Below, one piece after another: positions 7,455 to 33,148 of a stretch of 37,087 nt of DNA. The stretch is taken from contig SVPE01000019.1 of the NCBI GenBank assembly GCA_015066015.1, positions 1-37,087 on the forward strand, in the 5' to 3' direction. Within the stretch, counting starts at the first letter, position 1. Every line of letters begins with the position of its first letter. The notes beneath the pieces are model-generated. The model saw only the letters and a list, made by a program, of their open reading frames with translations, did not search any database and was not told the DNA's origin. The DNA comes from Oscillospiraceae bacterium (GTDB lineage Bacteria > Bacillota > Clostridia > Oscillospirales > Acutalibacteraceae). The translations under genes and the position numbers were made by a program.

Positions 7455-7676
7455 AAAATAAAAACTCCATCCACAATGTTTCCATTGGGGATGAAGCATT
7501 AACTCCACGGTACCACCCCGATTGAACAGATAAACTGTTCCACTCGATGCCTTAACGCGGCAAACGGACTTTCGTCAGCTCGGGAATGTCTTCACTGCAG
7601 CTCTTTTCGTAAGGTGCTTTCAGCCGTGGCACCTCTCTCTTTAACGGGAGCATACAGTTACTCTTTTCCGTCAACG
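7455..7676 (-). promoter_or_regulatory. T-box riboswitch leader of hisS-aspS (tRNA-His sensing)
   Basis: On the minus strand the T-box core AATCGGGGTGGTACCGTGG is present at about 7498-7516. It is followed by a terminator hairpin whose arms lie at about 7473-7497 and then by a T tract. Upstream are the parts of stem I: a GAGTA loop-E-like strand (about 7660), an AG-rich bulge (AGAGAGAGG), a distal loop closed by GTGC/GCAC, and on the return strand CAGTGAAGACATTCC. The CAT at 7586-7588 is in the expected place for the specifier codon and codes histidine, which fits hisS. Uncharged tRNA-His would stabilise the antiterminator and allow readthrough. The fold was drawn by eye. A possible extended -10 (TGATATTAT, 7720-7728) lies inside the 3' end of mgsA. 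Confidence 0.9.
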
Positions 7677-7703
7677 CTTTTACGGTATTCACCTGAATTC
7701 TTC

Positions 7704-27497: not shown

Positions 27498-27613
27498 CAG
27501 GGAGGCAGAACGTGCGTCGCGCGTTCACACAGAGAAAATCCGGTTTCAATCAGCGGGAAACCGGATTTTCTCTGTGTCTTTGACTTTCTGCGGAAAGTCA
27601 AAGTGCCTCCCTG
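27498..27613. repeat. Compact four-way-junction (cloverleaf) intergenic element, copy 1
   Basis: A closing stem of 10 bp (CAGGGAGGCA 27498-27507 with 27604-27613) encloses three hairpins. Arm A is 8 bp including one G-T (27508-27515 with 27519-27526). Arm B is a perfect 21-bp stem (27527-27547 with 27557-27577, 9-nt loop). Arm C is TTTGACTTTC (27579-27588) with GAAAGTCAAA (27593-27602, loop TGCG). Only C27578 and G27603 are unpaired at the junction. It lies between the aldolase terminator and the M23 promoter. It is not a tRNA and has no T tract. A copy of the same design is at 32935-33092. I know of no named family for it. Confidence 0.75.
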
Positions 27614-32830: not shown

Positions 32831-32866
32831 GCAGATATTTTTAGTGATTCTACTGAAAATATCTGC
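32831..32866 (+). terminator. Likely terminator hairpin of the GH127 gene
   Basis: GCAGATATTTT (32831-32841) pairs with AAAATATCTGC (32856-32866), extended inward by AGT/ACT. The following T content is modest (CTTGTATTTAATT), so confidence is moderate. Confidence 0.55.
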
Positions 32867-32934: not shown

Positions 32935-33092
32935 GCGCGAAGATGCGTCAACGCCGAGGGCGTTGACGTCGGAGCACCGCCGCAATCCCTTCCCCCGAAA
33001 GAACAAAAAGCCGACCTCTTACCTTCGTTCCAAAACATATGCGGCGGCGCTCCGCTTTTTGACTTTCACAGAAAGTCAAAAAATCTTCGCGC
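32935..33092. repeat. Compact four-way-junction (cloverleaf) intergenic element, copy 2
   Basis: A 10-bp closing stem (GCGCGAAGAT 32935-32944 with 33083-33092) encloses three arms. Arm A is 11 bp including a terminal G-T (32945-32955 with 32959-32969, loop GAG). Arm B is 15 positions with one mismatch (32970-32984 with 33040-33054) and has a 55-nt loop. Arm C is TTTTTGACTTTC (33056-33067) with GAAAGTCAAAAA (33071-33082, loop ACA). The only unpaired junction base is C33055, the same position and base as in copy 1. The 375-bp space between the GH127 gene and the next gene is otherwise filled by two terminators. Open frames across it look non-coding. Confidence 0.75.
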
Positions 33093-33114: not shown

Positions 33115-33148
33115 CAAAAAATCAGCACGGATTTTCTCCGTGCTGATT
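33115..33148 (-). terminator. Terminator of the anchored secreted protein gene
   Basis: AATCAGCACGGA/TCCGTGCTGATT (33137-33148 with 33120-33131) is a 12-bp perfect stem followed on the minus strand by TTTTTT. Confidence 0.85.

Follow-up and report, generated by a model that had tools for sequence, protein, structure and literature searches.

What kind of element occupies positions 32935 to 33092 of the window, the whole stretch of 37,087 nucleotides analysed here, and how can another intergenic site of the same window fold to the same plan from different letters? The earlier note had described the element (copy 2) as a cloverleaf, and folding confirmed this architecture: copy 2 forms a four-way junction of a 10-bp closing stem and three hairpin arms, A, B and C, with at most one unpaired base, a single C between arms B and C. 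Its RNA fold energy is -74.8 kcal/mol (z -9.0), which none of 200 shuffles equalled. Copy 1 follows this plan too, and as single-stranded DNA each of its strands folds accordingly, with z scores of -15.5 and -14.3. Both copies are intergenic. Copy 1 is flanked by two minus-strand genes, one of the aldolase-II family and one for a peptidase M23, and copy 2 by a GH127 glycosidase gene and, converging on it, a gene that has no Pfam match. The features are as follows:

27498..27613, plus strand: copy 1, short-loop type (DNA fold on both strands; covariance model match of 111.6 bits, copy 1 being in the training set of the model)
27498-27507/27604-27613, plus strand: closing stem of copy 1
27508-27526, plus strand: arm A of copy 1
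27527-27577, plus strand: arm B of copy 1
27578-27603, plus strand: arm C of copy 1
32831..32866, plus strand: terminator-like hairpin after the left-hand gene of copy 2, distinct from the element (consensus match and flank comparison)
32935..33092, plus strand: copy 2, whole element, long-loop type (fold; covariance model match at 32937-33090, 40 bits, E 1.1e-5)
32935..32944, plus strand: closing stem of copy 2, 5' side, GCGCGAAGAT, pairing with 33083-33092
32945..32969, plus strand: arm A of copy 2, 11 bp with the 3-nt loop GAG (fold)
32970..33054, plus strand: arm B of copy 2, 6+8 bp with a 55-nt loop at 32985-33039 (fold)
33056..33082, plus strand: arm C of copy 2, 12 bp with the 3-nt loop ACA, including the TTTGACTTTC/GAAAGTCAAA of the earlier note (fold and pattern match)
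33083..33092, plus strand: closing stem of copy 2, 3' side, ATCTTCGCGC (fold)
33120..33148, minus strand: terminator-like hairpin after the right-hand gene of copy 2, distinct from the element (consensus match only)

A second palindromic repeat of about 36-58 bp, represented in the window at 32831-32866 (GCAGATATTTTTAGT...ACTGAAAATATCTGC), occurs in both orientations near several cloverleaf copies and was seen in copy flanks on contigs C20, C23, C25, C33 and C38. The window also holds a T-box leader (RF00230, 111 bits) at 7484-7683 on the minus strand.

The two window copies belong to a large family. The arm C pattern matches twice in the window against an expectation of zero, and at 10 places in the 2.38-Mb source genome; all 10 places carry the other two arms and the closing stem and fold into the full cloverleaf, so that the genome search proposed in the earlier note met no arm C that stood by itself. 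A covariance model (R1) built from seven of these places found 68 distinct places with E values up to 1.4e-4 on 24 contigs, the seven included, after the two strands were merged and four weaker overlapping matches dropped. A second model (R2), built from 47 copies, added five copies within 788 kb, and a looser scan by shape alone of the same 788 kb gave 67 matches, which comprise 65 of the 73 copies then known and two further ones checked by fold; the same sequence shuffled in 300-base blocks gave none. As these 788 kb surround copies already known, the count of the shape scan is not a genome density. The suspicion that the genome holds many copies was thus borne out by 68, then 73 and finally 75 copies, a lower bound, the genome search having scored 150 of 889 candidates. 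Near-identical copies, such as L044 and L045 (3.3% apart), stand in different flanks. At one locus, a Gut-1 RNA (RF01706; L011:922-998, minus strand) and a cloverleaf copy are about 130 bp apart.

The overall architecture is shared across the family. In minimum-energy folds, 67 of the 68 copies have three hairpins within the closing stem and the remaining one shows four branches, and the median stems of the parsed copies are 8 bp in arm A, 20 bp in arm B and 12 bp in arm C. The family ranges from 83 bp, the smallest copy found, to 160 bp; 59 of the 68 copies measure 90-124 bp, and nine, copy 2 among them, reach 142-160 bp because of a long loop in arm B. That arm B tolerates such a loop, as had been surmised from copy 2, agrees with the nine copies above 130 bp and with the 67 parsed copies, in which loops longer than 11 nt are restricted to this arm; in a related species (G226), three of 12 copies carry a long loop, again in the middle arm. 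Many copies have T-rich runs at the end of arm B. The part thought to be conserved turned out to be another one: in an alignment of 55 copies conservation is highest in the closing stem, GCGGGGAGGC/GCCTCCCCGC, whereas arm C, which the earlier note held to be the sole conserved arm, varies widely (TTTGAC, TTTGGC, CTCCGG, CTCAGG, TTTTGC and others) and had seemed constant because just two copies had been compared. For copy 2 itself, the earlier note saw no evident sequence shared with copy 1 in the closing stem, arm A or arm B. Its closing stem GCGCGAAGAT is an outlier among the 68 copies, but other copies with a long loop, e.g. C4 and C41:34720, are similar to it in the arm A core (CAACGCC/GGCGTTG) and the arm B stem (GGAGC-CCGCC).

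The borders of the element are sharp. A logo of the 68 copies shows conservation from the ends GCGGGGAGGC...GCCTCCCCGC inwards, and no outside position exceeds about 0.25 bit. The 10-bp inverted ends make up a terminal inverted repeat; no unpaired GTAG or CGTC tag stands at the stem base, as no base outside GCGGGGAGGC is conserved. Target-site duplications are typical of MITEs, yet a comparison of flanks yielded none in this family: over the 68 copies, at lengths of 2-12 and offsets of 0-5, there was no convincing excess over shuffled flank pairs, and the top scores came from one copy each or from 2-base matches (eight where 2.5 were expected, in a set of several hundred tests). Immediately 3' of the element, eleven copies have 25-182 bp in common with another copy (e.g. 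ATCTTCCCTTCACCCCACACTCAGCATTTTATAATCAACC), and immediately 5' seven have 23-46 bp in common (CAATTGTGAATT...), as if they belonged to a composite repeat; L048, L047, L052, L061, L055 and L067 are among the copies that share flanks just outside the closing stem.

Pairing is retained while the paired letters change. In the structure-fitted alignment A4 of 47 copies, which leans towards the structure, two-sided changes occur in 37 of 46 pairs, and the covariation score is 0.450, compared to 0.131 in shuffles and at most 0.106 with partners slid. Likewise, 95.9% of cells pair, against 78.6% in shuffles and at most 53.2% with partners slid, and 332 cells are altered on both sides against 90 in shuffles. 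One column pair over 55 copies illustrates the pattern, with A-T in 26, T-A in 25, C-G in one and no pairing in three. Even where two copies are close, two-sided changes in the stems are no rarer than one-sided ones, and the loops are free to change. Among nine pairs of copies less than 8% apart we counted five one-sided changes, seven two-sided changes with pairing kept and one two-sided change that broke it, compared to 0.4 two-sided changes expected if the sides were independent; these counts come from the MAFFT alignment A3, which loses arm A and whose fold and close-copy counts cover only part of arm C besides the closing stem and arm B.

Neither strand is favoured by the fold. Parsed forward, the copies give 2461 Watson-Crick, 32 G-T, 12 A-C and 15 other pairs, and parsed in reverse 2489, 30, 18 and 15, respectively; the mean minimum free energies of the two strands are -81.0 and -81.4. 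In 30 copies from the related species G208, G226 and G228, one of 1247 predicted pairs is G-T. Altogether, the rarity of one-sided changes and of G-T pairs, with no strand favoured, points to DNA rather than RNA as the molecule whose fold is kept, and the family is a DNA-level, multi-copy repeat that conserves its fold and changes its stems in concert. The earlier note had taken the change of stems for compensatory change under selection. Its observation, pairing kept through changes of sequence, holds, but selection is one of two readings: as one-sided intermediates are scarce, a concerted, templated correction of the DNA arms fits at least as well. Beyond the closest divergence bins, an excess of two-sided changes is equally expected from slow selection. 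We also considered in-place inversion of loops and set it aside; eight loop pairs are related as reverse complements against one as reverse and one as complement, a comparison in which loop ends tend to be complementary and the control is not neutral.

Orthologous sites of two related species offer a closer view of this process. Six gene-flanked site pairs of G208 and G228 were matched, each with a copy in both species; these pairs were drawn from loci chosen for holding a copy, so that the frequency of empty sites is not inferable from them. In four pairs the copy has the same orientation, three being matched on both flanks and L264/L279 on one. Over the 156 stem pairs of these four, none changed on one side and three changed on both sides with pairing kept. 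Of the unpaired bases, by comparison, 16 of 40 differ, as do 56 of 360 positions in the flanks when gaps are counted. In the remaining two pairs (L267 versus L276 and L274 versus L273) the copy, together with its flanking hairpins, is oppositely oriented between the species; with one copy turned, 81 pairs show two one-sided and two two-sided changes. Since the long match lies on one flank only and the gap is rearranged, these two cases fit inversion and independent insertion alike. In the first of them a 167-bp block stands on the other side. At L280/L282, L283/L285, L288/L268 and L264/L279 (G228/G208), further hairpins, GCGCACGGC... and GCGCGCAGC..., flank the cloverleaf, giving hairpin-cloverleaf-hairpin units. 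No clean empty site emerged from G210 and G200, in which the genes that flank each window copy lie on different contigs, and loci L109-L113 match one side only.

How far the plan extends depends on whether it is sought by sequence or by shape. With the sequence-weighted model, five of 34 genomes of the genus, the source genome included, match at E 0.01, and the single weak matches in G003, G138, G201 and G210 lack a flush three-arm junction, that of G210 being a plain hairpin. At nine candidates scored per genome, one of 398 genomes of the family and two of 394 of the order match, the second order match (G451) again being a plain hairpin without a flush three-arm junction. Sequence models thus find the source family in none of the other genomes among these 34, 398 and 394. 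The arm C pattern matched in one of 200 family genomes, and its four stray matches in other phyla, from a search that may omit records near the source genome, form no cloverleaf.

By contrast, the shape scan of 852 kb from congeners gave seven matches against none in shuffles: three in G213, three in G226 and one in G225, the last of which (L126/L232, a single site) proved on inspection not to be this kind of cloverleaf. Most of the other congeners were shape-sampled in small stretches only. Further stretches of G226 contributed nine more matches, making 12 in about 214 kb, and a model (R3) built from nine of the G226 shape matches found, counting both strands, 74 places in G226, 37 in G208 and 42 in G228, and nothing at E 1e-4 in the other 31 genomes of the genus, the source genome included. 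All 30 loci fetched from these three species contain a shape match, while stretches of 12.7 kb from G208 and 20 kb from G228 gave none, though both species are carriers. In total, the known carriers are five of the 34 species, with at least three sequence families (source; G213; G226/G208/G228). Outside the genus, 363 kb of sequence (12 genomes, 11 genera) yielded none of this kind, and the sole match, L253 in G180, is not such a cloverleaf on inspection; at L253:11124-11268 it is a cluster of hairpins in which the word GTGATATT recurs as a spacer, and its multi-hairpin arrangement is a different one. Shape rather than sequence seems to be what is kept.

No mobilising enzyme was found for the family. 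The sole Y1_Tnp match in the source genome is partial (profile positions 57-121 of 121, at G000:C27:46131-46322, locus L107, IS200-like), lies 20 kb from the nearest listed copy and has no cloverleaf-like repeat beside it. With this partial match and no adjoining copy, the REPIN-RAYT arrangement is not seen here, and as the assembly is 91% complete, a RAYT gene may have been missed. By eye, no transposase is recognisable in the translated ORFs between seven groups of closely spaced copies, and all 13 matches to an end plus arm A were copies already known. As for a phage or plasmid source, the arm C pattern gave no match in viral contigs, copy L048 gave none in plasmids and none in phages, and 17 viral contigs exactly matching two end patterns showed no cloverleaf in the shape scan.

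The 68 copies are mainly extragenic. Fifty-six are clear of ORF calls of at least 90 aa, nine are inside and three partly inside such calls, and ten of the 12 overlapping calls have no Pfam match; we take these calls for spurious. By simple ORF calls, 35 copies lie between tandem, 26 between convergent and four between divergent genes, with three unassigned, compared to 213, 77 and 76 of all 366 gaps of the same stretches, which shows that divergent gene pairs are avoided; an earlier count on shorter stretches gave 38, 22, six and two. The copies, 37 on the plus and 31 on the minus strand, are also biased in direction. Read A-B-C, 47 of 68 oppose the locally G-rich strand (p 0.002), and with the skew required to reach 0.03 or more the figure is 41 of 61 (p 0.01). 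The majority coding strand is opposed by 41 of 68, which is not significant (p 0.11); of the 35 copies between tandem genes, 25 run against those genes (p 0.017), and at 20 places where skew and coding majority conflict, 13 copies oppose the skew. Since skew and gene direction are correlated, effects of replication and transcription on orientation are not separated by these counts. Of the 30 copies at the G208, G226 and G228 loci, 21 have the same direction as the G-rich strand (p 0.04); this holds in the arbitrary orientation of R3, which need not correspond to that of the source family.

These data bear on several other readings. A structured RNA, either a small RNA or a 3'-UTR element evolving by ordinary compensation under selection for its fold, would account for the very strong fold, the covariation and the mostly intergenic placement seldom between divergent genes. 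However, RNA helices normally contain more G-U pairs than the near absence of G-T seen here, the two strands fold equally, with G-T and A-C balanced when both are parsed, and no Rfam match at gathering score lies over the element, in the window or at 16 loci; we rejected an RNA gene or riboswitch on this strand symmetry and the lack of Rfam matches at the elements, and regard the RNA reading as quite improbable. The preference for convergent over divergent gene pairs is also what bidirectional terminators or transcript stabilisers accumulated between genes would produce, and the T-rich end of arm B and one weak terminator-like match inside copy 2 are in keeping with them. Yet a terminator needs one hairpin, not three and a closing stem, separate terminator-like hairpins already adjoin both window copies, and G200 and G210 (about 88% identical over one stretch) are without copies by the model. 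We regard this reading as improbable.

The inverted ends, the sharp border and the presence of copies on both strands would suit a classical MITE of a DDE transposon, in which the closing stem is the terminal inverted repeat and the inner palindromes are incidental. This is rather unlikely, as the 68 copies show no target-site duplication, pairing is kept in the inner arms with the same strictness as at the ends, and other species have the three-arm plan bounded by different ends. Finally, chance, an assembly artefact or contamination might be suspected in an assembly of 42 contigs with 91% completeness and 3.4% contamination, but is hardly credible for copies spread across 24 contigs, found by shape where shuffled sequence gives none, and built to the same plan in other assemblies of the genus.

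We therefore favour, with a probability of roughly 55%, a family of REPIN- or MITE-like, non-autonomous DNA repeats, mostly intergenic, in which the folded four-way junction is conserved, the arms change in concert and the copies spread as a folded strand. The copies have probably moved, and would do so as a folded single strand handled by a putative enzyme, as proposed for REPINs, perhaps with a bias towards one strand at the replication fork. IS200/IS605 elements are known for a single-strand preference there (PMC6006769), and the orientation bias of the copies is compatible with such a preference, though not proof of it. The arms might stay perfect if a mismatch in one arm were overwritten from the other during hairpin synthesis, a templated correction that selection for the fold perhaps assists. 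More tentatively, the families may represent a class of mobile DNA recognised by shape, whose machinery would read the junction while the letters drift in each species, copying re-templates the arms and the loops run free.

Such a family, keeping only its fold, would be missed by repeat surveys based on sequence; here, sequence-weighted models confine it to one species, whereas congeners yield the same plan when scanned by shape. Should the concerted arm changes be templated, DNA that has no function as RNA can show covariation, which usually serves as proof of a functional RNA structure, and this would matter for covariation-based screens for non-coding RNA. The orthologous pairs of G208 and G228 make concerted arm change directly measurable.

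Among the matches listed in the open literature, none describes multi-arm cloverleaf DNA repeats in bacteria, which is not proof of absence, and several known systems share part of the plan. The GTAG and CGTC palindromic repeats, as described in PMC3733652, are likewise small, palindromic and patchy among species, and CGTC repeats seem to lack a dedicated transposase; they differ in that their stems measure 5-13 bp and carry an unpaired tag, GTAG or CGTC, whereas the cloverleaf has three arms on one junction and no conserved base outside. The words Firmicutes, clostridi and cloverleaf are absent from the text of PMC3733652. The enterobacterial RU-1, RU-2 and RU-3 elements (PMC2229807, PMC2759123) are similar in being 103-168 bp long, intergenic and MITE-like, and their abstracts do not mention multi-arm junctions. 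With respect to the arms, quasipalindrome correction, in which imperfect inverted repeats become more perfect, has been attributed to template switching (PMC7202029, PMC3820800) and would yield two-sided changes without intermediates; it is known as a single-site mutational process and is not known to shape a cloverleaf repeat family.

A close resemblance exists to REPINs, which are short, multi-copy, extragenic, non-autonomous and hairpin-forming, and in whose hairpins two-sided compensatory changes are reported to be common. The cloverleaf family shares with REPs and REPINs the high copy number, extragenic position, non-autonomy and palindromic build, as seen in its 68 copies and the 56 that avoid ORF calls. 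It differs in architecture: a REPIN, as described, is a pair of inverted REPs separated by a variable spacer and accompanied by a RAYT in its genome, whereas the present element combines three arms with a closing stem. For REPINs, the legend of a supplementary figure refers to a “clover” configuration of lower stability.
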